Of a stretch of 61,796 nt of DNA, positions 167 to 58,693 are shown one piece after another (positions within the stretch are counted from its first letter, which is position 1; the number at the start of each line of letters is the position of its first letter). This DNA is from a bacterium. GTDB taxonomy: Bacteria; JAHJDO01. The notes beneath the pieces are model-generated. The model ran no database searches. It was not told the DNA's origin and saw only the letters and a program-made list of their open reading frames with translations. The stretch lies in contig JAHJDO010000101.1 in assembly GCA_018812485.1 (NCBI GenBank), forward strand, positions 1 through 61,796. Reading direction: 5' to 3'. Made by a program: the position numbers and the translations under genes.

Positions 167-1654
167 ATGTTAAGTAGAACAAAAAAAGAAGAACTCAGGG
201 ACAAGGTGTGTGGAATGCTCAGTAATGTAGGCATGAAAGTTGATTGCGAAGAAATGGAAAAGATTTTGCTTGGTAAGGGGTGTTCTGAAGCCACGAATAA
301 TCGTATAAAGATTCCTGAAGAATTAATTAAAGAGTTTTCTGCTTCTCAGGAAAAAAAGCTGGATAAAGAGGATGAAAAAGAATTCCTTGAAATGACTCTG
401 GAGTTTGGCGCTGCATATACTAAGTTTCTTCTTTGGAGTGGTAGAAAAGATGTGGTGAAAAAGAAATTAGAATCAGAATTTATAACAAATATTTTTGATG
501 ATGGGCCAACCAAGCTTTATGATTACAAGGGGCATAAAGAGGTTCCAGTAAATACAGAAATATTGACTAATATGATGAAGTTGGCCCATGCAATTCCTGA
601 AGTAGGATATGTTCCAGCCTGGTATCGCCAGGATGTGCCTCAGGAAACAGAAAGAATATCATCCTTGATTGAAGCCTTAAAACTTACGGATAAAGTAGGA
701 GGAGTTGAGTCAATTTCTATTGGACAGGTAAAATATCTGATAGAAATTGGTGATGTTATGGGAGAAAATCCAAAAGGCTGTCCATATCTTCACGGCTCAC
801 AGTGTATGACTTCTCCTTTAATGCTTGAGGCAAGATCTGCAGATGAAATGATTGAGAGAAAAAATAGAGGTGTAGGAAGATATTATGTTGCTTCCATGAT
901 AACTCTTGGGGTTTCTACACCAGTATCGCTATCAGATTCAATCATTTTGGGAGCAGCTGAAATTCTTGGGGGAATGATAGCTGCATATTGTTTAGATCCT
1001 GAGGCGGAAATTACAGGCAGAATGATTACATCTGTCCTTGATATGAAAACTGCAAATGCAACCATGTGCAGATCAGAAGGAGCCATTGTGAATGCAGGTG
1101 TCAGGGAATTATTTGATGATTTCTTTGGCTCTCAGATAAGAACAACCCCGGATTACATGACTACTGCAAAGGTTCCTGGACTTCAGGCAGTATACGAAAA
1201 CTTTTTTTCCGGAAGTGCTTTTAGTAAAGTTATGAACTTGAATGAGGCTTTTTATCCTGGTGTTGGTGTATTAAACATTGCAGGAGCAGGGTCTCCCACA
1301 CAGGCAATTATGGATATTGAGATAAAAAAATCTCAATATTTTCTTAGAAAGCAATGTGAAATGAATGATGGTGCTATGGATTTTAAGGAATTCTGTGAGG
1401 GCATATCTAATGGTAAGGAGTTTCTAAACAGCGATTATACGCTAAACCACTTTAGAGACATATGGTCTCCTTCTATATTTATAAGCGGGAATGCAGAATC
1501 GGGAGATGAAAAGAGTATTCTTGATAGATGTGATGAAATATGGAGAGAAAATGTTAAGAATTATAAGCCACGAGAATTACCCGAAGAAAAAAGAAAAGCA
1601 TTGGATGATCTATTAGCTAGAGCAAATAAGGAGTTATTGCGGAAGGAGGAATAA
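167..1654 (+). CDS. MttB-family (trimethylamine methyltransferase-like) protein, non-pyrrolysine, copy 1
   Basis: MttB-superfamily homologue of 495 aa. Known members move a methyl group from a quaternary or tertiary amine (trimethylamine, glycine betaine) to a corrinoid protein. Family features visible are the N-terminal helix followed by RIKIPEELI (46-54), TLGVSTPVSL (246-255), the DMKT stretch near 292 and TTAKVPGLQAVYE (332-344), close to the usual AKVPDAQA segment. There is no in-frame TAG, so it belongs with the non-pyrrolysine homologues such as MtgB rather than with pyrrolysine MttB. GGGAGG lies 8-10 bases before the ATG. It heads the cluster, 4 bases before the E1 alpha gene, and has a paralogue at 5252. 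No corrinoid partner (MttC) is in the window, so substrate and methyl acceptor are unknown. Confidence 0.85.
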   Translation: MLSRTKKEELRDKVCGMLSNVGMKVDCEEMEKILLGKGCSEATNNRIKIPEELIKEFSASQEKKLDKEDEKEFLEMTLEFGAAYTKFLLWSGRKDVVKKKLESEFITNIFDDGPTKLYDYKGHKEVPVNTEILTNMMKLAHAIPEVGYVPAWYRQDVPQETERISSLIEALKLTDKVGGVESISIGQVKYLIEIGDVMGENPKGCPYLHGSQCMTSPLMLEARSADEMIERKNRGVGRYYVASMITLGVSTPVSLSDSIILGAAEILGGMIAAYCLDPEAEITGRMITSVLDMKTANATMCRSEGAIVNAGVRELFDDFFGSQIRTTPDYMTTAKVPGLQAVYENFFSGSAFSKVMNLNEAFYPGVGVLNIAGAGSPTQAIMDIEIKKSQYFLRKQCEMNDGAMDFKEFCEGISNGKEFLNSDYTLNHFRDIWSPSIFISGNAESGDEKSILDRCDEIWRENVKNYKPRELPEEKRKALDDLLARANKELLRKEE

Positions 1655-1658
1655 TATA

Positions 1659-2609
1659 ATGGACAGGAAAAAATCAATTGAACTGCTTGATTTAATGTAT
1701 AGGATACGTCTATTTGAAGAGAGAACAATGGTGCTTTTTCGAGAGGGCTTAATAGTCGGTGCTCTTCACCATTACATAGGAGAGGAGGCAATTGCTGTTG
1801 GGGCTTGTGCTGCAGCAGAAAAAGACGATTATGTTGTAAGCACTCATCGTGGACATGGTCACTGCATTGCCAAAGGAGCTGACTTGAAACGTATGATGGC
1901 TGAGCTCATGGGCAGAGAAACAGGTTACAGCAGAGCAAGAGGCGGCTCCATGCATATTTTTAGCATTGAAGAAGGACTGTTAGGAGGAAACGGCATTGTA
2001 GGTGGTGGCCTTCCTATTGCTCTTGGTTCTGCACTTTCAGGGCAGTATAGAGAATCAGGACAGGTGACTCTCTGTTTCTTTGCTGAGGGAGCAGGTGCGC
2101 GAGGAACATTTCATGAATCCTTGAACCTGGCTGCCTTGTGGAAACTTCCTGTTGTATATATATGCGAGAATAATCTCTGGGCAGCTACTACCTATATAAA
2201 TTACGGCTTACCAATAGAGAATATCGGAGACAGAGCTTCCGCTTATGGAATACCCGGGAGAGTGATAGATGGAAACGATGTAGAGGAAGTTTATAAGACT
2301 GTGGATGAGGCGATAAAGAGAGCAAGAGAAGGCAATGGCCCTACTTTAATAGAGTGTAAGACATACAGGCATTATCCGCACTGTATGGTGATACCTGATA
2401 CAAGGCCGCAGGATGAGGTTATGGAATGGAAAAAGAAAGATCCTATTCCGCGTTTTGAGAAAAGGCTTCTGGAAGAAAAAGTAATAACAAAGACTGAAAT
2501 GGGAAAGATTAAGGAAAAAGTCAAGAACATGCTGGATGAGGCAGAAGAATTTGCAAGAAAGAGTCCTCTACCAGGTGTAGAGACAGTTGAAGAAGGACTG
2601 TGGGCATAA
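1659..2609 (+). CDS. Thiamine-diphosphate dehydrogenase E1 component, alpha subunit (pyruvate/acetoin dehydrogenase type)
   Basis: E1 alpha of a 2-oxo acid or acetoin dehydrogenase, 316 aa, the usual length for the split E1 family. Seen are HRGHGH (63-68), RARGGSMH (92-99), the FHESLNLAALWKLPVV segment after residue 150 and the ENN (170-172) of the ThDP motif. The first half of that motif, normally GDG, reads AEG (142-144), so Glu143 replaces the Asp that binds Mg2+. The spacing to ENN is preserved. It forms a pair with the E1 beta gene 18 bases downstream. No lipoyl E2 or E3 gene follows, so it may work with a distant E2 or without one. Substrate is not predictable from sequence. Confidence 0.88.
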   Translation: MDRKKSIELLDLMYRIRLFEERTMVLFREGLIVGALHHYIGEEAIAVGACAAAEKDDYVVSTHRGHGHCIAKGADLKRMMAELMGRETGYSRARGGSMHIFSIEEGLLGGNGIVGGGLPIALGSALSGQYRESGQVTLCFFAEGAGARGTFHESLNLAALWKLPVVYICENNLWAATTYINYGLPIENIGDRASAYGIPGRVIDGNDVEEVYKTVDEAIKRAREGNGPTLIECKTYRHYPHCMVIPDTRPQDEVMEWKKKDPIPRFEKRLLEEKVITKTEMGKIKEKVKNMLDEAEEFARKSPLPGVETVEEGLWA

Positions 2610-2627
2610 AAAGGAGGTGTTTGTAAT

Positions 2628-3596
2628 ATGAGAGAATTAACATATCTTGGTGCTTTAAATGAAGCTTTAAGAGAGGAAATGGAAAGAGACGAGAATGTTT
2701 TCCTCATAGGGGAAGATATAGGTCCGTTTGGTGGAGTTTTTGGAGTGGAAAAAGGACTCTGGGAGAAGTTTGGTGAAAAAAGAGTAAGGCAAACTCCCAT
2801 ATCAGAAGATGCAATAGTGGGAACTGCGGTTGGAGCTGCAATGACAGGGCTGAGACCTGTAGCAGAAATAATGTACATAGATTTTGTAACATGCTGCATG
2901 GATCAGGTAACAAATCAGGCGGCAAAACTCCGTTATATGTCAGGTGGTAGGATAAAAATGCCTTTGGTTATACGAGCACAGGGTGGAAGTGGTACTGCAG
3001 AAGCAGCACAGCATTCACAAAGTTTGGAAGCGTGGTTTGTGCATACACCAGGGCTTAAGGTGGTAATGCCTGCTACAGTATATGATGCAAAAGGACTTCT
3101 AAAAACAGCAATCAGGGATGATAATCCAGTAATATTTTTAGAGCACAGAATGCTTTACAATATAAAAGACAACGTTCCGGAGGGAGAGTGGACAGTGCCG
3201 TTTGGTAAGGCAGAGGTAAAACATGAGGGAAAAGACATTACCATTGTTGCCACATCCCTTATGGTCCATAAGGCATTGGAAGCGGCAAAAGAGCTTGCTG
3301 ATAGCATCAGTATAGAGGTTATTGATCCAAGAACGTTAGTTCCGCTTGATATAGATACAATTCTGAAGTCAGTAAAAAAGACCTCTAAATTACTTGTTGT
3401 TCATGAAGCTCCTACAATAGCAGGAGTTGGTGCAGAAATAGTAAGACAGGTTGTAGAAAATGCATTCGATTATCTTGACGGAGCACCACGTGTTCTCGGT
3501 GGCAGAAGTATTCCAATGCCTTACGCGCCAATACTGGAGAAAGCATGCACACCTCAGAAAGAGGATATAGTCAAACTCATAAAAGAAATGATGTGA
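2628..3596 (+). CDS. Thiamine-diphosphate dehydrogenase E1 component, beta subunit
   Basis: E1 beta partner of the preceding gene, 322 aa. It shows the family hallmarks IGEDIG (27-32), TPISEDAIVG around Glu60 (the Glu that activates the ThDP aminopyrimidine), AAMTGLRPVAEIMYIDF, and the C-terminal transketolase domain with VIDPRTLVPLD. An AAAAGGAGG ribosome binding site precedes the ATG. The alpha and beta subunits normally form an alpha2beta2 tetramer. Here all expected beta-side residues look normal, which makes the altered Mg motif in the alpha subunit stand out. A flavin reductase gene follows 4 bases later. Confidence 0.9.
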   Translation: MRELTYLGALNEALREEMERDENVFLIGEDIGPFGGVFGVEKGLWEKFGEKRVRQTPISEDAIVGTAVGAAMTGLRPVAEIMYIDFVTCCMDQVTNQAAKLRYMSGGRIKMPLVIRAQGGSGTAEAAQHSQSLEAWFVHTPGLKVVMPATVYDAKGLLKTAIRDDNPVIFLEHRMLYNIKDNVPEGEWTVPFGKAEVKHEGKDITIVATSLMVHKALEAAKELADSISIEVIDPRTLVPLDIDTILKSVKKTSKLLVVHEAPTIAGVGAEIVRQVVENAFDYLDGAPRVLGGRSIPMPYAPILEKACTPQKEDIVKLIKEMM

Positions 3597-3600
3597 TAAC

Positions 3601-4167
3601 ATGAAAATCTGTGTATTTCTTGGCAGTCCTAGAAAAAAGGGAAACACTGCCCATGTATTAAATTGGCTCTTGGAAGAGGCGAAAAATAATGGACATAAAG
3701 TAGAGCTAGTATATCTTCAAGATCAGAAGATATCCGGTTGTAAAGAGTGTTTTGCCTGTCAGAAAATAGTTGATAGACCGGGATGTTCTATTAAAGATGA
3801 CATGCAGAGACTATATCCAAAGATTTTAGAAGCAGATTGTATTTTGATTGCTACTCCTGTTTTTACGTGGTCTGTTTCTGCTCTGACAAAAGCATTTCTT
3901 GAACGAACATATTGTTTTGAGAAATTTTCTGAGGATGGTAGTTATATCTCCTTTGTAGAAGACAAGAGATGCGGGCTTATAGTAACAGCAGCTGGAGACG
4001 AATTTGAGGGTGCAGATTTAGTGGTTGAAAGCTATCGGCGGATGGTTGAGTTTCACAGGATGAAGAATATCGGGCACCTTGTGGTTGCCAATATTCGAAC
4101 CAAAAAAGACCTTTTAAAACCAAATGTTAAACAGGCAGCAAGAAAATTTGCCAGTTCTATAAAATAA
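3601..4167 (+). CDS. Flavodoxin-fold NAD(P)H-dependent FMN reductase (iron-sulfur flavoprotein-like)
   Basis: Small flavodoxin-fold oxidoreductase of 188 aa. The FMN phosphate loop is GSPRKKGNT near residues 8-16, and TPVFTWSVSALTKAFLER is the second flavin-binding segment. The stretch GCKECFACQK, with a further Cys about 10 residues on, resembles the cysteine-containing loop of the NADPH-dependent FMN reductase/iron-sulfur flavoprotein family, so a cluster is possible but not certain. It probably passes electrons within the cluster, for example to keep a corrinoid or another flavoenzyme reduced. That role is inferred only from position between the E1 genes and a dehydrogenase. Confidence 0.8.
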   Translation: MKICVFLGSPRKKGNTAHVLNWLLEEAKNNGHKVELVYLQDQKISGCKECFACQKIVDRPGCSIKDDMQRLYPKILEADCILIATPVFTWSVSALTKAFLERTYCFEKFSEDGSYISFVEDKRCGLIVTAAGDEFEGADLVVESYRRMVEFHRMKNIGHLVVANIRTKKDLLKPNVKQAARKFASSIK

Positions 4168-4193
4168 TAAAGAAAAAGGGGGAGTTGTATTAT

Positions 4194-5246
4194 ATGGTCA
4201 ACTGGGGAGTTATTGGAGCAGGAGGCATAGCAAGAAGAAGAACCATACCTGAGGGAATTGCAAAAGCTAATAATGCAGAACTTGTTGCTGTTATGGACAT
4301 TGATGAAAAGATTACAAAAAATATAGCAGATGAATATAAAGTCAAAGCGTATACAAAAGAAGAAGAAGTATTGGATGATAAAAATGTTCAGGCTGTTTAT
4401 ATTGCTACTCCTGTTAATCTGCATTGTAAGCAAGTAATTGCAGCAGCTAATAAAGGAAAGCATATATTATGTGAGAAATCCATGGCAATGACTGTTGAAG
4501 AATGCGAGAAGATGATTGAAATTTGCAGGGATGCAGACGTAAAGCTTGGTCTTGGATATATGATGAGATTTCATACGATTCATACAAGAATTAAGGAGAT
4601 AATACAACAGGGCTTGCTTGGAAGGATTGTTATGGCTAGAGCACAACTGTCCTGCTGGTATCCAGAGATACAGGGCGCATGGAGACAAAAAAAGGAGCTT
4701 AGCGGCGGAGGCTCTCTCATAGATATGGGAACACACTGTATTGATCTTCTAGAATTTATACTGGACAGTAAGGTAGCAGAAGTTACCTGTTTTACTGGCA
4801 ATTTAGCTCATAAATATGAAGTTGAGGATACTGCAGTTGTACTGATGCGATTTGAAAATGGCGCACAGGGTATTGTTGACAATTGCTTCAGTATACCTGA
4901 CAACTCATCAAAAAATATGCTGGAAATCTATGGAACAAAGGGAAGTATTCTGTGCAAGGGAACAATAGGACAGGGTGATGGAGGAGAAGCTATTTTGTAT
5001 ATTGAAGAGGAAGGGAAACAATACGATGCAGACCAAAAAAGGAAACCTGTTTCCTCTAGCGAAATAATAAACCCGAAACCGATTAATACCTATCAGGCAG
5101 AAATAGAACATTTTTCAGATTGCATTATAAACGATACAAAACCTTCTACTTCCGGTGAAGATGGCATGTGGAGCCAAAAAGTTGGTTTAGCGTGCTATGA
5201 ATCAGCAAGCACAAGAAAGGTTGTAAAAATTAACAATAGGAGATAA
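4194..5246 (+). CDS. Gfo/Idh/MocA-family NAD(P)-dependent oxidoreductase
   Basis: Dehydrogenase of the glucose-fructose oxidoreductase/inositol dehydrogenase family. Rossmann motif GVIGAGGIARR is at the N-terminus, and the catalytic-lysine motif usually written EKP is here EKS (HILCEKSMAMT). The sugar-side GGGSLIDMGTHCIDLLEF is typical of the C-terminal domain. A TTG three codons upstream is in frame, but the ATG at 4194 sits 9 bases after GGGGGAG and is the better start. Family members oxidise sugars, inositols or similar polyols. It lies 5 bases before the second mttB homologue, suggesting it handles a product of that pathway. Confidence 0.85.
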   Translation: MVNWGVIGAGGIARRRTIPEGIAKANNAELVAVMDIDEKITKNIADEYKVKAYTKEEEVLDDKNVQAVYIATPVNLHCKQVIAAANKGKHILCEKSMAMTVEECEKMIEICRDADVKLGLGYMMRFHTIHTRIKEIIQQGLLGRIVMARAQLSCWYPEIQGAWRQKKELSGGGSLIDMGTHCIDLLEFILDSKVAEVTCFTGNLAHKYEVEDTAVVLMRFENGAQGIVDNCFSIPDNSSKNMLEIYGTKGSILCKGTIGQGDGGEAILYIEEEGKQYDADQKRKPVSSSEIINPKPINTYQAEIEHFSDCIINDTKPSTSGEDGMWSQKVGLACYESASTRKVVKINNRR

Positions 5247-5251
5247 CGTTT

Positions 5252-6754
5252 ATGCGATTGAGAATGTTAACGACAGAAGACAGGGAAACACTTAGAAATA
5301 AAGTATATAGATTACTCTGGGATGTTGGAATGAAGATTGAGCACGACGAAATCATATCTATTATGAAAGAAAAAGGGTGTAAGTTAAACCATCTTGGACG
5401 AATAATTATTCCCCCAGAGCTCATCGATGAACTTATTGCATTACAAAAAGAAACACAGGCGCAAGACGATGACGATCAAAGTCTACATATCCATTATGGG
5501 CCAGGAGTGGCTTGGACACATTTTATAATCTGTTCAAATAAAAAACAGGAAATGAAGAGAAAAATAGGTTCTGAATTCAAGATGTCCATGTTTGGTTCAG
5601 GACCGGCTAAGTTCTATGATTATCCAGGTAAAAATGTCCTTCCTGTTGACACTAAAATTTTTATTGAAATGATGAAGTTAGCTGAGTCCACACCAGGGAT
5701 AGGTTATATAGGCCCCTGGTACAGACATGATGTCCCCGCCAAAATAGAAAGAATAGACTCACTTGTTCTAGCTCTCAAATATACTAATAAATATGGGGGT
5801 GGAGATGTTATGTATCCAGAACAGATTAAGTACATAAAGGAAATTTCGGATATTGTAATGCCTGATGCTTTAGGTAAAGCGCCTTATCTGTATGGATCTA
5901 TAGCTGTAATCTGTCCTCTTATTATGGGAAAAAGGAATCTTGATGATTTACTTGAGAGAAAAAGAAATAATATAAGAAGATATCGTATTTCTACAATGCC
6001 TGCAATAGGCATGAGTGCTCCTTCAACTATTGCCGGTGCTGTTATTCAGGCATCTGCAGAACTTTTGGGCGGGATGGTGGCTGCATACTGCATGGACAAA
6101 GGAGGAGAAATAAGCGCCCGTGTAATTCCTAATTCTGTTGATATGAGAAATGTTAATCTAACTTCATGCGGGCCGGAAACATCACTACTGGGGCTTGGTG
6201 TAAAAGAGCTGTTTGATAGCTGTTTCGGAGGACATCTGTGGCTTGAAACATTTTTTGCAGCATCAGCCAGAGTTCCAGGGTTACAGACAGTATATGAAAA
6301 TTTCTATGGAGCTTATAGATATGGGAAGCTAACAGGTATAGCAGATGTCCCATATCCCGGGTTGGGAAATATTGGCTACATGGGAGTAGGCTCTCCTACA
6401 CAGGCAGTACTTGATATGGAAATAAGAAAATCCCAGTTTGATGTTAAGAATAAAATAGAAGTCAATGAAGAAGCTATGAACTTCGAAGAGCTATGTGACA
6501 GGTCTAAGAAAGGAGAAGAATTTCTAACAAGTGAACATACACTAAAACATTGTCACGACATATGGAAATCTGATATATTTCTAAACCAGTTGCCTGAAAC
6601 CTGGGTAGGGGATGAAAAATGTATTCTGGATAAATGTGATCAATTGTGGAAAGAAAATATCAAGAATTATCAGCCACCAGCAATATCAGAAGATAAAATT
6701 AGAGCTTTAGACAAAGTGCTTGAGCATGCAAAAAAGGAATTATTAAATCAGTAA
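5252..6754 (+). CDS. MttB-family (trimethylamine methyltransferase-like) protein, non-pyrrolysine, copy 2
   Basis: Second MttB homologue, 500 aa, clearly paralogous to the gene at 167 over its full length: both start with a helix ending VGMK, share IIIPPELI/RIKIPEELI, FYDYPGK/LYDYKGH, PWYRHDVP/AWYRQDVP, SARVPGLQTVYE/TAKVPGLQAVYE and a C-terminal ILDKCDQLWKENIKNY block. It also lacks an in-frame TAG. AGGAGA precedes the ATG by 8 bases. Two diverged copies in one operon suggest either two substrates, successive demethylations, or a heteromer. Members of this family need a corrinoid protein, which is not encoded nearby. Confidence 0.85.
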   Translation: MRLRMLTTEDRETLRNKVYRLLWDVGMKIEHDEIISIMKEKGCKLNHLGRIIIPPELIDELIALQKETQAQDDDDQSLHIHYGPGVAWTHFIICSNKKQEMKRKIGSEFKMSMFGSGPAKFYDYPGKNVLPVDTKIFIEMMKLAESTPGIGYIGPWYRHDVPAKIERIDSLVLALKYTNKYGGGDVMYPEQIKYIKEISDIVMPDALGKAPYLYGSIAVICPLIMGKRNLDDLLERKRNNIRRYRISTMPAIGMSAPSTIAGAVIQASAELLGGMVAAYCMDKGGEISARVIPNSVDMRNVNLTSCGPETSLLGLGVKELFDSCFGGHLWLETFFAASARVPGLQTVYENFYGAYRYGKLTGIADVPYPGLGNIGYMGVGSPTQAVLDMEIRKSQFDVKNKIEVNEEAMNFEELCDRSKKGEEFLTSEHTLKHCHDIWKSDIFLNQLPETWVGDEKCILDKCDQLWKENIKNYQPPAISEDKIRALDKVLEHAKKELLNQ

Positions 6755-6779
6755 GAACTGACAAAAGGAGGAAATAGGA

Positions 6780-7691
6780 ATGGAAAGACTGGTATACGTA
6801 AATGGGGAAATGGTTCCTGAAAGTGAAGCTAAGGTTTCTGTTTTTGACGTCGGCTTTCTCTATGGAGCTACGTTTTTTGAATCCGTAAGAACTTTTAAAC
6901 ACAAATTTTTTAAACTCGATGAGCACTTGAGGCGTCTTGAGCGGTCCTTACGCTACGCAGGGATACCTGATATTATCACAAAAGAGAAAATGGCGGATAT
7001 TATGTCTCAGGTACTGGATGCCAATATTCATCTGACAGATAAGGAAGACGATATGTGGATGTGTGCAGAGGTTACACCCGGGAAAACATTCCCAATGCCT
7101 TTAATGAAACAAATAGATAAGACTCCGACCGTTATTGTTTATTCCAGTGCTATGCCGCATAGCGAGTATGTCAAATATTATACGCAAGGGAAACATGTTG
7201 TAACCTCTTTAATTAGAAATACATCCCCCCAAAATCTGGATTCACGCGCCAAGAATCGTAACAGAGTACCTCATTTCCTTGCAAAATTAGAGATTGTAAA
7301 AAAGGATCCTAATGCATTTGGGCTTTTTCTCGACCTTGAGGGAAATATAACAGAAGGCACAGGGGCCAATATCTTCTTTGTCTTAGATGGCATCTTATTC
7401 ACTCCTACAACAAAGAATATTCTGAACGGTATCAGCAGACTGACTGTTATAGAACTGGCAGAGAAAATGAATATAAAGGTTATAGAGAAGGATCTTACTT
7501 TATATGATGCATATAATGCAGAGGAGGCATTCTGGACAACCAGTTCATACTGTATTCTGCCTATTTCCATGATCGATGGCCGCAAAATCGGGGATGCGTA
7601 TCCGGGCCCTTATGCGAAAAAGCTCCTGGATGCATGGAGTAAGGAAGTAGAAGTTGATATAATCGGACAGGCTCAGAAATTTGCGAAATAA
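6780..7691 (+). CDS. Class IV PLP-dependent aminotransferase (branched-chain/D-amino acid aminotransferase fold)
   Basis: Fold-type IV aminotransferase or lyase, 303 aa. The N-terminal VNGEMVPESEAKVSVFD and the glycine-rich VGFLYGATFFESVR are typical. Lys158 in SRAKNRNRVPHFLAKLE aligns with the PLP lysine of the IKSLNYL segment. ITEGTGANIFFV and the C-terminal GISR/LTV segment form the cofactor phosphate site. The family contains branched-chain and D-amino acid aminotransferases and aminodeoxychorismate lyase. No specific subclass can be assigned. In this catabolic operon it would add or remove an amino group next to the amine dehydrogenase-like gene that follows. Confidence 0.87.
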   Translation: MERLVYVNGEMVPESEAKVSVFDVGFLYGATFFESVRTFKHKFFKLDEHLRRLERSLRYAGIPDIITKEKMADIMSQVLDANIHLTDKEDDMWMCAEVTPGKTFPMPLMKQIDKTPTVIVYSSAMPHSEYVKYYTQGKHVVTSLIRNTSPQNLDSRAKNRNRVPHFLAKLEIVKKDPNAFGLFLDLEGNITEGTGANIFFVLDGILFTPTTKNILNGISRLTVIELAEKMNIKVIEKDLTLYDAYNAEEAFWTTSSYCILPISMIDGRKIGDAYPGPYAKKLLDAWSKEVEVDIIGQAQKFAK

Positions 7692-7715
7692 ATAACAAAA
7701 AAAGGAGAAAACAAG

Positions 7716-8729: not shown

Positions 8730-8731
8730 TT

Positions 8732-9574: not shown

Positions 9575-10806
9575 CTTCACGGGAAAGAGTAAAAAAAATA
9601 TTGAATTTTGAAATGCCTGACAGGCCTGCTATAGATCTCGGGTCAACAAGAATGACAGGTATTTCTGCATGGATATACAGAGAGCTAAAGAGACGCCTAG
9701 GAATAAAATCTGATGAAGTTAAAGTATTTGACATGAGTCAGATGCTCGCAGAAGTTGAAATGGAAGTTCTTGAGGAGCTGGGATGCGATTTTGTAATGTT
9801 ACCCATGCAGATTTTACCGCTTGAGCTCTCATATGGTGATTGGAAAGATTATAAATTCTGGGACGGACAAACATTTAAAGTACCGGCAGAGTTTAATCCA
9901 AAGGTTTTAGAAGATGGTACATTAATTGTCGGTAATGGACGTAATTGGGAGAAAGAAACTCGGCGTATGCCAAAAGGATGTAGGTATCTTGATAGAATAG
10001 AATATCCTGACATTAAGACAATGGATTTTGACATATCTCATATAGACAAAAAGGACTGGGTGTTTTCAAAACCTCTTTCAGACGAATTTTTAAAAACAGA
10101 AGAAAATAATGCTAAAATATTAAAACAATCAACAGATAAGGCTATTGTGTCTTCAGGGGGAATATCGGGAGCATGGGGAATGCCAGCAGGATATGGAGGG
10201 GTTATAGGATGGGGAATAAAGATGGCTCTTGACCCAAATCATGCAAAAGAACATATGATGGCAGAAGCAGAAGCATTGTCCAAGCGTATAAAGTTATATT
10301 TAGAAGCAGTAGGTAATTACATTGATGTTATAGTTGTAAGTGGTACTGATTTCGGAGCACAAAAAAAGGAACAATTTAATCCCGATTTATTTAAAGAATT
10401 CTTCGTACCTGCGTGGAAAATGGTAACAGATACAATACATAAATTTGCTGATATAAAAATATTTATTCATTCATGCGGATGTGTGAGGGATCTCATCCCC
10501 TACTTTATTGATGCAGGTGTTGATATTTATAACCCGGTTCAATGGTCTGCAGATAATATGGATCGAGAGGAGCTTAAAAAAGAGTTTGGCAACAAGATAG
10601 TATTCTGGGGCGGAGCAGTCAATACGCAAAAAACATTTCCTTTTGGTACATCTGATGAAGTGAGAAAAGAAGTGAAAGAAACTATTAATATACTCGGCAA
10701 AGGTGGAGGTTATGTAGTTAATCCAGTACATAACATACAACCAGACGTACCAGTTGAAAATATAATTGCGTTGTATGAGACTGCAAAGAATTATAGATAT
10801 AGTTAA
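9571..10806 (+). CDS. Uroporphyrinogen decarboxylase-family (MtaA/CmuA-like) protein 1
   Basis: UroD-fold protein of 411 aa starting with the family signature MTSRERVKKILNFEMPDRP. In corrinoid methyltransferases of this fold (MtaA, MtbA) zinc is held by His-X-Cys and a later Cys. Here HSC is present (300-302) but the later Cys position in VVNPVHNIQPDVP is His387. It could still bind zinc as His-Cys-His. Length exceeds the 340-350 aa norm because of an insertion around 95-190. Start ATG overlaps the previous stop (ATGA), implying translational coupling. A methyl-transfer role alongside the MttB proteins is plausible but not shown. Confidence 0.8.
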   Translation: MTSRERVKKILNFEMPDRPAIDLGSTRMTGISAWIYRELKRRLGIKSDEVKVFDMSQMLAEVEMEVLEELGCDFVMLPMQILPLELSYGDWKDYKFWDGQTFKVPAEFNPKVLEDGTLIVGNGRNWEKETRRMPKGCRYLDRIEYPDIKTMDFDISHIDKKDWVFSKPLSDEFLKTEENNAKILKQSTDKAIVSSGGISGAWGMPAGYGGVIGWGIKMALDPNHAKEHMMAEAEALSKRIKLYLEAVGNYIDVIVVSGTDFGAQKKEQFNPDLFKEFFVPAWKMVTDTIHKFADIKIFIHSCGCVRDLIPYFIDAGVDIYNPVQWSADNMDREELKKEFGNKIVFWGGAVNTQKTFPFGTSDEVRKEVKETINILGKGGGYVVNPVHNIQPDVPVENIIALYETAKNYRYS

Positions 10807-10826
10807 TAAATAGGAGATGAATTATT

Positions 10827-11651
10827 ATGAATTCTGACAAGATTGAAGATTATAAAAGACTGGCTACTCAAATCAGGGTTGATGTTCTTAAGATGATATA
10901 TAAGGCAAAGAGCGCTCATATAGGCGCTTCTTTCTCGATGGCAGACATACTTGCAGTGCTGTACGGAGGCATCATGAAGGTAAACCCATCTGATCCCAAA
11001 TGGGAAGATCGTGATAGATATGTACAGAGCAAAGGGCACGCTGCAGCAGGTCTTTATGCAGCGCTTGCAGAAAAAGGGTTTTTCCCAAGGGATTGGCTGG
11101 AAACCTATTATCAGGATGGAGGACATCTTATGGGGCATGTATGGCACAAAGTCCCTGGAGTAGATGTATCCAGTGGTGCTTTAGGTCATGGACTTTCCAT
11201 AGCATGCGGAATGGCGATTAACGGAAAATATAAGAAGAAACAATATCGAGTTTTTGTTATGCTCAGTGACGGAGAATGTGATGAAGGTTCGGTATGGGAA
11301 GCAATTATGTTTGCTCCACAGCATAAACTTGATAATCTTGTTGCTATAGTTGATTATAACAAACTTCAGGCGCTTGGCACAGTGAAAGATGTTCTTGATT
11401 TAGCTCCTCTTGCAGACAAATGGAGAGCGTTTAACTGGTCAGTAAAAGAAGTGGACGGACATAATTACAAAGAAATTGATGACGCATTATCAAGTGCTCC
11501 TTTTGAACAGGGAAAGCCAAGCTGCATTATAGCTAATACAGTAAAAGGAAAGGGTGTAAGTTATATGGAAAATAAAGTAGAGTGGCATTATAAAAGTCCG
11601 GATGAAGGACAACTAAAACAAGCTTTTTCAGAATTGGGGGTGACGGAATGA
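10827..11651 (+). CDS. Transketolase, N-terminal (ThDP-binding) subunit
   Basis: N-terminal half of a split transketolase, 274 aa. SKGHAAAGLYAAL, GALGHGLSIACGMA and the ThDP motif SDGECDEG (147-154) with Asn178 are intact, and AHIGASFSMADILAVLYGG is typical. Split transketolases are common in bacteria and archaea and work as a heterotetramer with the C-terminal half, which starts in the stop codon of this gene (4-base overlap). It moves two-carbon ketol units between sugar phosphates. Its presence in this operon suggests that a sugar- or ketose-like fragment leaves the pathway here. Confidence 0.92.
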   Translation: MNSDKIEDYKRLATQIRVDVLKMIYKAKSAHIGASFSMADILAVLYGGIMKVNPSDPKWEDRDRYVQSKGHAAAGLYAALAEKGFFPRDWLETYYQDGGHLMGHVWHKVPGVDVSSGALGHGLSIACGMAINGKYKKKQYRVFVMLSDGECDEGSVWEAIMFAPQHKLDNLVAIVDYNKLQALGTVKDVLDLAPLADKWRAFNWSVKEVDGHNYKEIDDALSSAPFEQGKPSCIIANTVKGKGVSYMENKVEWHYKSPDEGQLKQAFSELGVTE

Positions 11652-12577
11652 GACCTGCATTTAATAAAACACTTGTTGAATTAGCAAGAGAGGATGAACG
11701 CATATTTCTGGTACTAGCGGATATCGGGTTTAACGCAGTCGAACCGTTTGCAAACGAGTTCCCTGACAGATTTTTTAATGTTGGTGTAGCCGAGCAGGAT
11801 ATGACAGGGATAGCGTGCGGATTGGCTCTGGAAGGCAATATTGCTTTTACTTATACAATAGGAAATTTTGTGAGCATTAGATGCCTTGAACAGGTGCGCA
11901 ATGATGTATGTTATCACAATGTAAATGTCAAAATTATAGCGATAGGCGGTGGTGTTGCCTATGGCGCGCTGGGCTCCTCGCATCATTGCGAGCAGGACCT
12001 TGCGATTATGAGGTCATTACCAAACTTAATAGTTCTCTCTCCTGGAGATGCTGTTGAAACAAGACTTCTAACGCGTGCAATAACAGCACATAACGGGCCG
12101 TGCTATATGAGAGTTGGAAGAGGAAAAGAGGTTGTAGTTCATCAAAGTGACCCGGACCTAGAGATTGGTAAAGCAATTACTATGCGAGAGGGAAATGACT
12201 TAACATTAATTTCAACAGGAGATATGCTGCCCTATGTTATGGATGCTTCTGAGTCCTTAGAACAAAACAGAATTAATGCACGTGTCTTAAGTATGCACAC
12301 AATTAAACCTTTAGATAAGGAAGCCATAATATCTGCTGCACACCAAACAGGTGCTATTATAACAATAGAGGAACACAATATACTGGGTGGTCTGGGGGGC
12401 GCAGTGGCAGAAATTCTGGCTGAATCAGATTGTCCTAAAGTCACTTTCAAAAGGATGGGTTTAAATGATGCATTCTGCAAGAAAATTGGTTGCCAGAAAT
12501 ACCTGAGGAAGGAATATGGCTTATCAATTGAGGATATTGTAACTACAGCAACATCAGTTATTAGTAAAAAACAATAA
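11648..12577 (+). CDS. Transketolase, C-terminal (pyrimidine-binding) subunit
   Basis: C-terminal half of the split transketolase, 309 aa, partner of the preceding gene. Glu49 in VGVAEQDMTGIACGLA is the catalytic Glu that activates ThDP. The C-terminal domain has VLSMHTIKPLDKEAI and IIEEHNILGGLGGAVAE-type sequence. DXPS has a related architecture but the subunit split and the motifs favour transketolase. It shares an ATGA overlap with the N-terminal subunit and is 12 bases from the next gene. Confidence 0.92.
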   Translation: MRPAFNKTLVELAREDERIFLVLADIGFNAVEPFANEFPDRFFNVGVAEQDMTGIACGLALEGNIAFTYTIGNFVSIRCLEQVRNDVCYHNVNVKIIAIGGGVAYGALGSSHHCEQDLAIMRSLPNLIVLSPGDAVETRLLTRAITAHNGPCYMRVGRGKEVVVHQSDPDLEIGKAITMREGNDLTLISTGDMLPYVMDASESLEQNRINARVLSMHTIKPLDKEAIISAAHQTGAIITIEEHNILGGLGGAVAEILAESDCPKVTFKRMGLNDAFCKKIGCQKYLRKEYGLSIEDIVTTATSVISKKQ

Positions 12578-12589
12578 GGAGAGAGGAAG

Positions 12590-13624
12590 ATGGCATATCC
12601 AGGGGTTCTGGAAGACATAAAAATATGTATTAATCTAGGTATTCCAAAAAAAGTCCCGATTTTTGCTCTGGCAGAACTTTTTAATGTACGAATGGCTGGA
12701 ATAACCTATGAAGAGTATACCTACAATGTTGATAAGCTGGTTAAATGCGAAGTAGAAGCTGTAAAACGATTTGATTATGATTGGGTCTATCTTAATCCGG
12801 ATGATAATATGGAATTCGAGCCCCTTGGAGTAAAGACAAAGGGAGAGGAAAACGTTCCCTTAGGTGCATATGAGTTTTTACCTGCTTCTTGGGATACACT
12901 TAAAACTTTAAAACTCCCTGATTTCCAACACGATGGAAGAATGCCGGCTTTTCTTGAGGCAACAAGCAGGATTAAAGAAGAGCTAAAAGATACCATTTGT
13001 CTTTGCGGCCGTGTAGCTGCTCCATTCAGCTCAGTAGCATTATTATATGGAGTAGAAAAGGCATTAGTGCTTTTTTTAGAGAATCCCGAATTGTTTAAAA
13101 AAACAGCGGATTTCTTTGTTGAACTTATGAGTGAATGGGGGAAAGCCCAAATTCAGGCCGGAGCAGATGCTATCTGGGTGGGAGATTGTGTTGCTTCCTC
13201 TGGTTTTATCTCTCCAAAACACTATTCTGAATTTGCTGCTGAAGGAGCACTAAAATTAAATACAGCATTAAAAAAAGAGGGAGCCGTCATTTTCTATCAT
13301 GCTGGAGAGTCATCTCTTCCGCATCTTGAATTAATGGCTGATACGCATCCTGATGCCCTTAGTATAGGCGGAGGGATAGATATTAAGAAAGCTAAGGAGA
13401 CCGTAGGCAAAAGAGTCTGCCTGCTTGGCAATATTCACGGTATCAAAACATTACAACGGGGCAGTCCTGAATATGTAGAAAAAGAGACCATAAGAATTAT
13501 GGAAAGCGGCAAGAAAAATGGCGGTTATATATTTAATTCTGAAGAAGGGATTGCTTATCAAACGCCTGAGCAAAATATAAGAATAATGATGCAGACTGCT
13601 AAGAAATACGGCAGTTATAAATAG
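12590..13624 (+). CDS. Uroporphyrinogen decarboxylase-family protein 2
   Basis: UroD-fold protein, 344 aa. Family features are the DYDWVYLNPDDNMEFEPLG region, ICLCGRVAAPFSSVALLYG, ADAIWVGDCVASSGFISPKHY and VCLLGNIHGIKTLQRGSPE. The zinc motif of methyltransferases is missing: the His-X-Cys position reads HAG (FYHAGESS) and the late Cys position reads SEEG. True uroporphyrinogen decarboxylases also lack that motif, but this gene is in a catabolic operon, not a haem locus. Probable role is methyl transfer without zinc, or a different reaction on a cyclic or methylated substrate. Confidence 0.75.
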   Translation: MAYPGVLEDIKICINLGIPKKVPIFALAELFNVRMAGITYEEYTYNVDKLVKCEVEAVKRFDYDWVYLNPDDNMEFEPLGVKTKGEENVPLGAYEFLPASWDTLKTLKLPDFQHDGRMPAFLEATSRIKEELKDTICLCGRVAAPFSSVALLYGVEKALVLFLENPELFKKTADFFVELMSEWGKAQIQAGADAIWVGDCVASSGFISPKHYSEFAAEGALKLNTALKKEGAVIFYHAGESSLPHLELMADTHPDALSIGGGIDIKKAKETVGKRVCLLGNIHGIKTLQRGSPEYVEKETIRIMESGKKNGGYIFNSEEGIAYQTPEQNIRIMMQTAKKYGSYK

Positions 13625-13638
13625 AAAGGATTTCATTA

Positions 13639-14673
13639 ATGACCTCAAGAGAACGAGTTTTTGCCGCATTAGAAGGTAAAATACCTGACAGGGTACCTAT
13701 AATGGAACTGGTTGTGGATCAAAAGGTTATACAGGCAATTCATCCTGGCATCTCATATTATGATTTTATTGAAGAAATAGGTTTTGATGTTGTATGTGTA
13801 GGCATGAGTACGGATACCGATAAGATAGAATGGATTGATAAGGACAAAAAAATCTTCAAAGGTAAATGGGGAGAGACAAGAGCCTTTACAACAGAAGTTA
13901 AGGCAGTTCCCATACCGCCATATCCCATACAAACAGAGGAAAACCTAAAATCATATACCCCTCCTGACCCTAATGATCCTAACGCGTTGGGAGATCTTAA
14001 AGAAGTCGTCAAGAGATTTAAGGGCAAAAAAACTATTGCTTGGGTTGGAGGAGGAGTGTTTGCTCCACAGCAGTATCTAAGGGGAGTAGAAGATTTACTT
14101 ATGGATTATGTATTGAATCCTCAATTGGTTAAGAAGCTCGCAAAAATTGGAGAAGAATATTATATTGAATTACACAGAAGGGTCATAAAAGAAGGAGTGG
14201 ATATTGTAATTCTTGGAGATGATTATGCCGGTAAAACAGGGCCTATGATGTCTCCAGCGCATTTTGAAAGTTTTATACTACCGGGATTGACTGCCATTGT
14301 TAAAGGAATAAAAAAAGCAGGAGCTTATTGTATCAAGCATACGGACGGAAATATATGGAAAATCATTGACATGATTGTCAAAACGGGGGTTGATGCTATT
14401 GGTCCGGTAGAGATCGGTGCTGGAATGGAGCTTGACAAGATTAAAGAAAAGTATGATATTTGTGTAGTTGGTAATGTGGATATAGATCTTCTTTCGCGTG
14501 GAACAGTTGAAGAAGTTGTTAAGGCGACAAAAGAGTGCATCAAAAAAGGAGCCTCTCGGGGAGGACATATTCTTTCGTCTGCTAATAGTATTATTTCTGC
14601 AGTTAATCCTGATAATTTTTTGGCAATGGTTAATACAGCTAAGGAGTTTGGTAAATATCCAATAGATATATAA
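13639..14673 (+). CDS. Uroporphyrinogen decarboxylase-family protein 3
   Basis: Third UroD-fold protein of the operon, 344 aa, starting MTSRERVFAALEGKIPDRVP. It carries the KHTDGN segment in place of His-X-Cys (His-Thr-Asp) and ILSSANSI in place of the late Cys, a pattern I associate with a widespread uncharacterised subfamily rather than with MtaA/MtbA. Thus each of the three UroD paralogues in this cluster has a different residue set at the metal site. A spacing of 14 bases from the previous gene and 17 to the next supports a single transcript. Confidence 0.78.
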   Translation: MTSRERVFAALEGKIPDRVPIMELVVDQKVIQAIHPGISYYDFIEEIGFDVVCVGMSTDTDKIEWIDKDKKIFKGKWGETRAFTTEVKAVPIPPYPIQTEENLKSYTPPDPNDPNALGDLKEVVKRFKGKKTIAWVGGGVFAPQQYLRGVEDLLMDYVLNPQLVKKLAKIGEEYYIELHRRVIKEGVDIVILGDDYAGKTGPMMSPAHFESFILPGLTAIVKGIKKAGAYCIKHTDGNIWKIIDMIVKTGVDAIGPVEIGAGMELDKIKEKYDICVVGNVDIDLLSRGTVEEVVKATKECIKKGASRGGHILSSANSIISAVNPDNFLAMVNTAKEFGKYPIDI

Positions 14674-14690
14674 ACTATGGGAGATTCAAA

Positions 14691-16070
14691 ATGAGTGATG
14701 AAAGACTTACAAAAGAACAAATTAAGCAGTTTAAAAATGATGCTTTGCGCTATGTGTGTCCGCATGCCGCTAAGAACGATGAATTGCTTGTAAATGGTCC
14801 TAAAATATTTACAAGAGGAGAAGGCTGTTATGTGTATGATATAGAAGGCAGGAAATACCTTGATACATTCGCGACACTGCTTACAACAATATGTGGACAT
14901 AATCGTCCGGAGGTAAGGCAGGCAGTAACTGAACAAATGAAAAAGCTGGAGTTTTTTCCCAATTATGTGGATAGCTTCACCCTTCCTCTTATCAAGCTGG
15001 CAAAGAAACTGGCAGAAATTACACCGGGAGATCTTTCTGTATCTTTCTTTGTTAACAGCGGTTCAGAGGCTAATGAAACAGCTATAAAGATAGCCAAGCA
15101 ATATCAACTGGAGACAGGAAAACCTAAAAAGTGGAAAATTATTGCAAGAAGATTCTCCTATCATGGGACAACCTTAGGCGCTGCATCAGCTACAGGTTTA
15201 CCTTCATATAAGAAATATCTTGAGCCGTTGCTGCCTGGATATATATTTGCGAAGGCTGCTCGTGACTGCGAGTGTCCGGAAGGTATGAGTTCAAAAGAAT
15301 ACGGGAAAGTCTGTCTTAAAGAGTTAGATGATTTAATACAATTTGAAACACCTGAGACAATAGCAGGTATGATAATGGATCCTGTGCCCGGATCAAATAC
15401 AGCATATCCGCTTCCGCCCGAAGGATATCTGCAGGGCGTGCGTAAGCTTTGTAATGAATATGAAATAGTGCTGATATTTGACGAGGTTCAGACAGGATTT
15501 GCTAAAACGGGAAAAATGTTCGCATGTGAACACTGGGATGTAACCCCTGATATTATAACTCTTGGCAAGGGCTTTACGGGCGGGTTTGCTCCTTTAGGTG
15601 CTGCTGTAATGACAGAAAAAATATATAAGGTATTTAAGAGAGTTGGACATGAACTGCGCAGTGGAAGCACATTCGGAGGACATACCCTGGCCTGTGCAGC
15701 AACTTTAGCTAATATCGAGATAATTGAAAAAGAAAATCTTGTAGAAAAAGCTGCTGAAATGGGGAAATACTTAAGAGAAGGGCTTGAAAAATTATATAAA
15801 CACTCCATTGTAGGTGATGTTTGTGGAATAGGAATGCTTTTGGCGGTAAAACTGGTATCTGATAGAAAGGCAAAAACTCCTCTGGCCCCAGAACTCAAAG
15901 TAGGTAAATGGATAAGAGAGCGATGCTGGCAGCTTGGAATGATACTGCGCAATAATGGAGATATTCTTGTTATTGCTCCGTCTCTTATTCTATCCAAGGA
16001 CGAAGCGGATACACTGCTCAAAAAAACTGACCAGGCAATTTCTGACGCAATGAAAAACTTTAAATTTTAA
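14691..16070 (+). CDS. Class III PLP-dependent aminotransferase
   Basis: Aspartate aminotransferase superfamily, class III (4-aminobutyrate/ornithine type), 459 aa. Seen are NSGSEANE (122-129), SYHGTTLGA (156-164), FDEVQTGFAKTG (263-274) and the PLP lysine Lys293 in TLGKGFTGGFAPLGA. An insertion around 190-210 with four Cys (RDCECPEG and later VCL) is unusual. Members transfer amino groups from terminal amines such as GABA, ornithine, beta-alanine or amino-sugar derivatives. With the class IV enzyme and the amine dehydrogenase-like protein it argues that the substrate carries one or more amines. Confidence 0.9.
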   Translation: MSDERLTKEQIKQFKNDALRYVCPHAAKNDELLVNGPKIFTRGEGCYVYDIEGRKYLDTFATLLTTICGHNRPEVRQAVTEQMKKLEFFPNYVDSFTLPLIKLAKKLAEITPGDLSVSFFVNSGSEANETAIKIAKQYQLETGKPKKWKIIARRFSYHGTTLGAASATGLPSYKKYLEPLLPGYIFAKAARDCECPEGMSSKEYGKVCLKELDDLIQFETPETIAGMIMDPVPGSNTAYPLPPEGYLQGVRKLCNEYEIVLIFDEVQTGFAKTGKMFACEHWDVTPDIITLGKGFTGGFAPLGAAVMTEKIYKVFKRVGHELRSGSTFGGHTLACAATLANIEIIEKENLVEKAAEMGKYLREGLEKLYKHSIVGDVCGIGMLLAVKLVSDRKAKTPLAPELKVGKWIRERCWQLGMILRNNGDILVIAPSLILSKDEADTLLKKTDQAISDAMKNFKF

Positions 16071-16096
16071 ACTAATTTTTAAGGAGATAAATAACA

Positions 16097-17380
16097 ATGA
16101 ATATATTACTAATCATGCCTGATGCTCTCAGGGGCACCAACCTTGGCTGTTGTGGTTATTCCAAAAACACCTCTCCATTTATGGATAAACTGGCAAAAGA
16201 GGGCATTGTGTTTAAAAACGCAATTGCTCAAACTGCGCATACTCATCCTGGCGTTGTTTCTGTTTATACAGGGCTTTATCCTACCACCCACTGCCAACAA
16301 ACTCCTGATGACTTTGCTGCGTTTGGAGAAGCAGGCTGGAGTAATGAATGGAGAAATACAGAACTCAGAAAGAAATGGAAAGCGCCTCTTAACATACTTA
16401 AAGAACACGGTTATACAACAGGCGGGAAACATCCCGATTCATGGTGGTCTTTGGGATACTTGATAGAAACAAAAGTAGACAAGATTTTCAATAAACTTAT
16501 AGAGGATTATACAAGCAGACCATTTTTTATGATGTGTATGCCGTATTACACACATATTGCATACAACGCTGTGCCTGATTATGACAAACTGTTCTTATCT
16601 GAGGGTGACAAACTTACTGATAACTTTAGAAAATATGTAGAAATGATAAAAACAACAGGTCATGGGTATATATTAAATCCAGAATTTGTTGGTAAAAAAT
16701 ATCAGGAAGCAAAAACAGCTACTTCATGGAAAGTATTTACCTTATCCGAGGAAGACAGACCGTCTGTAATGGCTCTGTACGACGGAGCAGTAAGAAACCT
16801 GGATATGGAAATAGAAAGATACGTAAAAAAGCTGGATGAATTAGGCATCTTAGATGATACATTAATTATTATAACTCCAGATCACGGGGAAGAAATATTA
16901 GAAAGAGGATCATTAGGCCATGCATCCTGTTCAATGGCAGGAACCCTGTATGACGAAAACATAAGAATTCCTCTTATCATGAGATATCCAAAGGCATTGC
17001 CTCAGGGCAGGGTAATAGAAACTCAAGTAAGTCAGGTGGACATAATGCCTACAATATTTGATATACTGGACTATCCTATGCCTGAACTTACAGAAGGACA
17101 TTCGCTCTTACCGCTTATTGAAGGGAAAGATATTGATTTTAAAGAAGAGACACATTGCGAAACATTAGTTTGCGGTATGCAGACTCTGGACTGGGATAAA
17201 AGAATGAAGTGGGCCCTCAGAACACCGCAGTGGAAGCTTATATACAGTCAGAATCCAGAGGGCAATTATTACGAATTGTATAATCTAAAAAATGACCCTG
17301 CAGAGAAAGTAAATCTCATTGACAAAGAACCGAAAATCGCAAACGAATTAAAAAAGAAACTCAGAAAAAGGGAAATTTAA
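16097..17380 (+). CDS. Sulfatase-fold (alkaline phosphatase superfamily) hydrolase with Thr at the nucleophile position
   Basis: Alkaline phosphatase superfamily enzyme of 427 aa, no signal peptide. MPDALRGTNLGCCGY and ITPDHGEE give metal-binding Asp/His residues of the sulfatase core, and LDEQVSQVDIMPTIFDILDY-like sequence is typical of arylsulfatases. In true sulfatases the nucleophile is Cys or Ser of C/S-X-P-S-R, converted to formylglycine. Here the aligned segment is THPGVVSVYTG with Thr49. Thr is the nucleophile in nucleotide pyrophosphatase and LtaS-type relatives, so a phosphodiesterase or phosphonate-type activity is more likely than sulfatase. It is followed after 2 bases by the CBM9-like gene. 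Confidence 0.82.
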   Translation: MNILLIMPDALRGTNLGCCGYSKNTSPFMDKLAKEGIVFKNAIAQTAHTHPGVVSVYTGLYPTTHCQQTPDDFAAFGEAGWSNEWRNTELRKKWKAPLNILKEHGYTTGGKHPDSWWSLGYLIETKVDKIFNKLIEDYTSRPFFMMCMPYYTHIAYNAVPDYDKLFLSEGDKLTDNFRKYVEMIKTTGHGYILNPEFVGKKYQEAKTATSWKVFTLSEEDRPSVMALYDGAVRNLDMEIERYVKKLDELGILDDTLIIITPDHGEEILERGSLGHASCSMAGTLYDENIRIPLIMRYPKALPQGRVIETQVSQVDIMPTIFDILDYPMPELTEGHSLLPLIEGKDIDFKEETHCETLVCGMQTLDWDKRMKWALRTPQWKLIYSQNPEGNYYELYNLKNDPAEKVNLIDKEPKIANELKKKLRKREI

Positions 17381-17382
17381 AC

Positions 17383-18075
17383 ATGAAAACAAAAGTTTAT
17401 GAATGTCCTTATATCAGCGAGAAAATGAAGATTGATGGTATTCTTAATGAGAAAGCGTGGCAAAAAGCTAAAATACTGGATTTCTACATACCTGTCACAC
17501 ATAAAAAACCAATAAGTAAAACAGAGGCTAGACTGCTATGGGACGATAAGTATTTGTATGTAGGATTTAAAGCCTATGACAAGGATATATGGGGATACTT
17601 TAAGGATAGAGATGACCCAACATGCAGAGAGGATGTCTTAGAGATTTTCTTTAAGACAGATACCAGGAGAGCCCCATATCAGAGCAGGGAGCCATACTAT
17701 AATTTTGAAATTAATGCATTAGGTACTGTTTATGATGCGTTCAACATAAAAAGAAATGCTGGGGGAGGAGATCATCACAGATGGAGCAAGTGGAACTGTG
17801 AAGGACTAAAAGTTGGAATAAAAATCAAAGGAACTTTAAATAACTGCGAAGATATAGACGAATACTGGCAGATGGAAGCAGCAATTCCTTTTGCAAGTTT
17901 ACCAACTTTAAAAGGGAAATCTCCAAAAAATAAAGACAAATGGTTGTTCCATCTAGCCCGCTACGACTATTCTGTATATCTTCCCAAAGGAGTAGAGCTG
18001 AGTTCGTGCTCTAAATTATCAGAGGTTAATTTTCATAAATACGAAGACTGGATGAACTTGAAATTCGTAAGATAA
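17383..18075 (+). CDS. CBM9-like carbohydrate-binding/DOMON-type protein
   Basis: Protein of 230 aa made almost entirely of one family 9 carbohydrate-binding-like beta-sandwich: IDGILNEKAWQKAK at the start, ARLLWDDKYLYVGFKAYD, EDVLEIFF, YYNFEINALGTVYDA, and a closing WQMEAAIPFASL. No signal peptide or catalytic domain is seen. Family members of this stand-alone type occur near glycoside hydrolases and sulfatases in PVC and related bacteria. Role: binds a sugar or aromatic ligand, otherwise unknown. Last gene of the plus-strand cluster. It is convergent with the decayed isomerase fragment. Confidence 0.8.
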   Translation: MKTKVYECPYISEKMKIDGILNEKAWQKAKILDFYIPVTHKKPISKTEARLLWDDKYLYVGFKAYDKDIWGYFKDRDDPTCREDVLEIFFKTDTRRAPYQSREPYYNFEINALGTVYDAFNIKRNAGGGDHHRWSKWNCEGLKVGIKIKGTLNNCEDIDEYWQMEAAIPFASLPTLKGKSPKNKDKWLFHLARYDYSVYLPKGVELSSCSKLSEVNFHKYEDWMNLKFVR

Positions 18076-46805: not shown

Positions 46806-46822
46806 AAAAAGGAGATAGACAT

Positions 46823-47962: not shown

Positions 47963-47965
47963 ATC

Positions 47966-58673: not shown

Positions 58674-58693
58674 GACGTCATCATAATCAAATT

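Follow-up and report, generated by a model that had tools for sequence, protein, structure and literature searches.

We identified a conserved module of at least 17 genes that we read as catabolic, acting on an N-methylated, perhaps also O-methylated, amine-bearing compound whose methyl groups would pass to a shared corrinoid protein encoded elsewhere in the genome; we assign this reading a probability of about 0.55. The module is apparently undescribed, and a literature search for clusters joining MttB, UroD and transketolase found none. The lack of a corrinoid partner within the cluster has an unremarkable explanation, for which the literature offers precedents.

Organization of the gene cluster

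The stretch analyzed (the window) comprises bases 1-61796 of contig C101, from a genome of 2.68 Mb in 172 contigs (96% complete, 4.9% contaminated). All 17 open reading frames reported by the sequence-only reading are present at 167-18075 on the forward strand, and every named fold exceeded the Pfam curated cut-offs: two MTTB and three URO-D proteins, an E1 alpha/beta pair, a split transketolase, class III and class IV aminotransferases, a 2,4-diaminopentanoate dehydrogenase-like protein, a Gfo/Idh oxidoreductase, an FMN reductase, a polysaccharide deacetylase, a sulfatase and a CBM9 protein. The 16 joins measure, in order, 4, 18, 4, 17, 5, 25, 24, 2, -4, 20, -4, 12, 14, 17, 26 and 2 bases. 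Many were thus rightly described as shorter than 20 bases (12 of 16), whereas the three overlaps claimed are reduced to two, each of 4 bases. A purine-rich, Shine-Dalgarno-like stretch was found at 14 of the 17 starts. Promoter and terminator scans of the cluster gave nothing clearly above shuffled sequence, and a search for a cobalamin riboswitch nearby returned none.

The start of mttB1 lies 166 bases from the contig end, and one forward frame upstream of it stays open through to that end. Because the window begins at a contig end, missing upstream genes are no evidence of absence. The GC content is 0.39 in the cluster versus 0.38 in the remainder of the window; contamination was rejected as the source of the contig on this ground and because a sister species carries the same cluster on a contig of its own. 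Glycan-biosynthesis genes are located further along the contig.

MttB1 and MttB2

MttB1 (167-1654, 495 residues) and MttB2 (5252-6754) share 43% identity and score 87.9 and 95.8 bits, respectively, against PF06253 (curated cut-off 25). They are about 20% identical to characterized members and reach 125 bits on the MttB equivalog model, whose cut-off is 525; no MttB or UroD protein of the cluster exceeded any NCBIfam equivalog cut-off. In the phylogenetic tree, MttB1 and MttB2 form their own deep, long-branched clade with full support, which an MttB-like protein from another phylum (genome G042) joins weakly. A contig scan using MttB1, MttB2 and sister-species (G003) queries returned three distant loci only.

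The AlphaFold2 model of MttB1 (pLDDT 79, pTM 0.80) was compared with known structures using Foldseek. The best match was MtgB (9yce, E 3.2e-25, TM 0.74), with further matches to 7xcl, 7xcn and 4yyc; the set comprises MtgB, pyrrolysine MttB, a chain of the MttB-MttC complex and the S. meliloti homolog, and nothing else was comparable. Family-invariant positions are retained. Their frames are uninterrupted, with no in-frame amber codon at the pyrrolysine position and Met/Ala near the corresponding alignment column. MttB1 and MttB2 therefore represent a deep non-pyrrolysine branch in which the MttB/MtgB fold is predicted to be kept. To our knowledge, only a minority of MttB-superfamily proteins have an assigned substrate, and we know of no corrinoid-independent function of the fold. 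A deep MttB branch with such a rich conserved set of neighbors constrains the chemistry.

UroD proteins

UroD1 (9571-10806), UroD2 (12590-13624, 194 bits) and UroD3 (13639-14673) match PF01208, and the predicted structure of UroD2 has the UroD fold, which is unable to tell HemE from MtaA. HemE was rejected for all three (at most 82 bits versus a cut-off of 303), and they also fall below the MtaA/CmuA family cut-off. With UroD2 aligned to 4ay7, the positions matching the MtaA His-Cys-Cys zinc ligands read H300-C302-H387 in UroD1, H237-G239-E319 in UroD2 and His-Asp-Asn in UroD3, so that the metal-site His is retained but the complete site is present in none of the three. Given these ligand positions (H-C-H, H-G-E and H-D-N), UroD1-3 are poor thiol methyltransferase candidates; of their earlier description as MtaA homologs, the fold stood and the MtaA identity did not.

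In the O-methyltransferases of this superfamily, which include corrinoid-dependent O-demethylases, the Cys ligands are described as lost or replaced by carboxylate (PMC10418091), and CdmB is active without zinc (PMC13222342). UroD2 and UroD3 fit the former substitution, with the corrinoid protein and methyl-THF:corrinoid methyltransferase (MeTr) of the genome present only at unlinked sites; CdmB itself matched UroD2 weakly. Judged by these residues, UroD1-3 could possibly be substrate methyltransferases.

Other proteins of the cluster

Two thiamine diphosphate (ThDP) enzymes are encoded. The E1 alpha (1659-2609; PF00676, 270 bits) and beta (2628-3596; PF02779/PF02780) subunits are a second copy with no E2 nearby; the only E2 in the genome adjoins another E1 pair on contig C91, and the cluster pair was accordingly rejected as the pyruvate dehydrogenase (PDH) of the genome. 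No E2 was found in G042 (87% complete). The transketolase is split into N-terminal (10827-11651; PF00456) and C-terminal (11648-12577; PF02779/PF02780) halves. An NADPH-dependent FMN reductase/flavodoxin-fold protein (3601-4167; PF03358) precedes an inositol-dehydrogenase-like Gfo/Idh/MocA oxidoreductase with a TTG start (4185-5246; PF01408, PF02894). The class IV (6780-7691; PF01063) and class III (14691-16070; PF00202, 340 bits) aminotransferases are accompanied by a protein with a GTG start (7716-8729; PF19328, 145 bits) resembling 2,4-diaminopentanoate dehydrogenase and the amine dehydrogenases in the PDB, which scores 298 bits on NF040740, under its cut-off of 400.

In the NodB-fold protein (8732-9574; PF01522), HTYGG replaces the HSxxH motif. 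The alkaline-phosphatase-superfamily hydrolase (16097-17380) has the sulfatase fold (PF00884) that had been proposed, without the sulfatase active-site motif: Thr49 occupies the catalytic Cys/Ser position (HTHPGV) and C/S-x-P-x-R is absent. It was therefore rejected as a formylglycine-type sulfatase and is a candidate phosphatase- or phosphodiesterase-like enzyme. The last of the 17 genes encodes a CBM9-fold protein (17383-18075; PF06452), for which N-terminal hydropathy gave no evident signal peptide.

Conservation in other genomes

Phylum searches gave five genomes, all of one genus, for the phylum of the window and two for that of G042. The sister species G003 carries 16 of the 17 genes on contig C38 at 81-98% protein identity (98% for E1 beta), 15 of them collinear, a conservation beyond chance. 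Missing synteny among relatives, which the sequence-only reading had named as grounds for overturning it, was looked for and is not what we observed. In G003, MttB2 is absent, the class III aminotransferase is relocated upstream of mttB1, and an ornithine-cyclodeaminase-family gene lies between those for FMN reductase and Gfo/Idh. The 4.6 kb upstream of its mttB1 encode a ROK regulator, an alpha/alpha-toroid protein, the class III aminotransferase and a short-chain oxidoreductase (SDR), and no corrinoid protein.

A 13 kb contig of G042 (C79) contains six cluster genes, encoding MttB-like (23% identity), E1 alpha (60%), E1 beta (74%), UroD2 (73%), UroD3 (58%) and CBM9 (72-74%) proteins. The contig also encodes an amidohydrolase, an SDR and a multi-span membrane protein of the DUF6785/6784 type. 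Counterparts of the amidohydrolase and the SDR are present in the window as a gene for a PF04909 amidohydrolase_2 protein (20424-21992, 55%) and an SDR gene (22005-22769, 68%), both on the forward strand, indicating that the module reaches past 18075. The earlier reading was thus correct on the 17 genes but placed the boundary too early; the amidohydrolase/SDR pair are probable detached members, with a melibiase-like gene on the minus strand lying between them and the rest.

UroD2 has the widest distribution of any piece of the module. In G002 it is 92% identical and lies near an isomerase-like TIM barrel, an aldose epimerase and, 2.2 kb upstream, an SDR with 67% identity to the 22005-22769 gene. 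A UroD2 paralog in G003 (49%) has as its neighbors an SDR gene and a copy of the gene for the sulfatase-fold protein (64%). Among 385 mostly unrelated genomes, matches as strong as UroD2 occurred only in that of the window, G003, G042 and G002.

A candidate corrinoid partner elsewhere in the genome

As the sequence-only reading had noted, no corrinoid protein is encoded anywhere in the 61.8 kb of the window (the top MttC match has E=9.4). The whole-genome search for MttC and RamA homologs that it had called for located both on another contig, C103. B12-binding family searches gave 21 matches, and the base-off motif DxHxxG occurs in two: a short frame on C155 and a 216-residue MttC/MtgC-type corrinoid protein (C103:7855-8505, motif DLHDIG), which scores highest, though under the cut-off, on the NCBIfam model for MtgC, the corrinoid protein of glycine-betaine metabolism. 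About 5 kb away is the only RamA-type (RamA/AcsV-type) activase of the genome (C103:1257-3230). Contig C119 encodes MeTr (334 bits versus a cut-off of 259), a separate homocysteine methyltransferase and a further protein that reads as a CobA-type adenosyltransferase. These loci support the suggestion that methyl groups leave through an unlinked corrinoid protein.

Family searches, on which our genome-wide absences rest, returned just two Pterin_bind genes and so gave no indication of a full-length MetH. The genome therefore has separate homocysteine, methyl-THF and corrinoid modules plus a RamA-like activase, and by its sequences the C103/C119 set is a split methionine synthase, like that of Phaeobacter with its RamA-like activase (PMC5764234). 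The corrinoid protein is unlinked to the cluster in all three cluster-bearing genomes, namely that of the window, G003 (99% identity; its single close MttC) and G042 (67%). An 89% homolog in G004, a genome without MttB, has a housekeeping neighborhood. From its presence across G003, G042 and the MttB-less G004, the corrinoid protein is older and probably housekeeping, and MttB1 and MttB2 could plug into it.

Sharing of this kind is documented: in E. limosum, MtpB, MtcB and MtyB use one common MtqC from a separate cluster (PMC8604678), and Ruegeria MtgC is common to methionine synthesis and betaine demethylation (PMC12478193). By analogy, MttB1, MttB2 and methionine synthesis may use one corrinoid protein, that of C103.

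Proposed function and alternative explanations

We infer every step of the following scheme, as well as the substrate class, methylated and amine-bearing, which was equally an inference in the sequence-only reading. MttB1 and MttB2 would act as substrate:corrinoid methyltransferases, a role that the UroD proteins may share, with the single C103 protein, which would normally serve the split methionine synthase, as methyl acceptor. The C103 activase would reduce the corrinoid protein, and methyl groups would exit to tetrahydrofolate or homocysteine via MeTr and the homocysteine methyltransferase of C119. The carbon skeleton would then be deaminated, oxidized and cleaved by the aminotransferases, amine dehydrogenase, Gfo/Idh, SDR and ThDP enzymes. 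With carrier and repair enzyme encoded elsewhere in the genome, this operon probably constitutes a new module of catabolism that connects to a shared B12 system for methyl transfer. Since the genome offers a candidate corrinoid partner, the substrate of this MttB branch is directly testable by reconstitution. If sharing holds, lineages known from few genomes would join those in which methionine synthesis is connected to the catabolism of methyl compounds.

Two aminotransferases, a split transketolase, Gfo/Idh and SDR enzymes are equally characteristic of pathways that build sugars and cyclitols. Together with the glycan-biosynthesis genes on the same contig, they would suit a biosynthetic cluster making, for example, an uncommon metabolite derived from an amino sugar or a cyclitol, in which MttB and UroD methylate a product. 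We consider this improbable, as known MttB members demethylate, and the ROK regulator and DUF6785/6784 membrane protein (possibly an importer) of related clusters, like the TIM barrel and aldose epimerase beside UroD2 in G002, are better suited to catabolism; the regulator, the membrane protein and these sugar-type neighbors hint at catabolism over biosynthesis. The cluster might instead have its own corrinoid gene just past the contig end, to which one frame before mttB1 stays open; divergent MttB relatives do have a linked MttC. The C103 protein may then serve methionine synthesis only, given its occurrence in the MttB-less G004 and its housekeeping neighborhood. This too is unlikely: the 4.6 kb upstream of mttB1 in G003 hold no such gene, the sole close MttC there is unlinked, and the 96% complete genome of the window yields only the C103 and C155 motif matches.

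The deep, long-branched MttB clade, the incomplete zinc sites of UroD1-3 and the fact that none of the three clusters has a corrinoid gene linked to it would also accord with a departure from corrinoid chemistry, the folds being reused for lyases, decarboxylases or direct methyl transfer. We find this quite doubtful, since the MttB fold and its invariant positions are retained, MttC is present in every cluster-bearing genome, characterized MttB-superfamily members all methylate a corrinoid (PMC8604678), and loss of Cys ligands is likewise reported for corrinoid-dependent O-demethylases, CdmB for its part needing no zinc. That MttB1, MttB2 and the zinc-site-deficient UroD2 and UroD3 perform corrinoid-free chemistry, whether methyl groups are passed on directly or the reaction involves none, is very unlikely. 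The corrinoid-free use of the MttB fold raised by the sequence-only reading gained no positive support, and a corrinoid-free MttB in this cluster is unlikely; if true, it would be the first case known to us of the fold working independently of a corrinoid.

Comparison with known systems

Returning to the proposed catabolic module, its three UroD-superfamily proteins recall the type 1 mlp gene clusters (PMC10418091), each of which also has three. Membership was rejected, as the present cluster has no corrinoid protein or activase and no His-Cys-Cys sites, and has MttB proteins instead. UroD1-3 share the UroD fold and the metal-site His with MtaA/MtbA, the MtvB/VdmB O-demethylases and CdmB but differ in their incomplete sites, scores below the MtaA/CmuA cut-off and absence of a linked corrinoid protein or MTII; their zinc-ligand positions do not match those of the soluble CoM methyltransferases (MtaA/MtbA).

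The genome resembles the marine MtgBCDE/split methionine synthase systems in its separate corrinoid, methyl-THF and homocysteine modules and RamA-like activase, whereas here the MttB genes lie within a large unrelated operon and their products putatively share the corrinoid protein. Like MtgB, MtpB, MtcB and MtyB, MttB1 and MttB2 exceed the PF06253 cut-off, have the same predicted fold and contain no in-frame stop; unlike them, they form their own deep clade at about 20% identity and are paired with UroD and ThDP enzymes. As with MtqC of E. limosum, the candidate corrinoid protein of the cluster is encoded at an unlinked site.

In the sister species G003, paralogues of two cluster members, the sulfatase-fold gene and UroD2, are paired on contig C32 (L089, 8545–10917) with an adjoining SDR, and share 64% and 49% identity, respectively, with the window genes. 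This pairing suggests that the sulfatase-fold protein and UroD2 work as partners. The related cluster of G042, a genome from another phylum, includes a 269-aa and a 480-aa protein (contig C79, L061, 2742–3551 and 4154–5596), neither of which returned any match in a Pfam search.

On contig C103 of the window's own genome, which carries the unlinked corrinoid protein gene, a glycine riboswitch (L026, 13820–13917) precedes a gcvT/gcvH/gcvP-like run by ~140 bases; the gene for the corrinoid protein is ~5 kb away from the riboswitch. A stretch on the minus strand of the congeneric genome G002 (contig C124, L093, 480–6985) contains genes that, on inspection by eye, resemble pylSc, pylB, pylC and pylD, and also encodes an MttC-type corrinoid protein. 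Its MtbB-like gene has one in-frame TAG, with the reading frame open for 112 residues beyond, and a ROK gene adjoining this stretch is 84% identical to the regulator of the G003 sister cluster. Judged from these sequences, the window's genus apparently includes a genome with a pyrrolysine cassette.

Elsewhere in the window, a UxaE-type tagaturonate epimerase gene (30071–31492; strong match, 586 bits) has sugar-related neighbors. A single ketosynthase gene, with an acyl-CoA dehydrogenase gene and one further small gene after it, occupies 45567–48757, the rest of the contig being rich in glycan biosynthesis genes. Two large DUF5060-domain proteins (48888–51245, with a PKD/GDSL protein after it, and 56937–58712) are possible glycoside hydrolase relatives.
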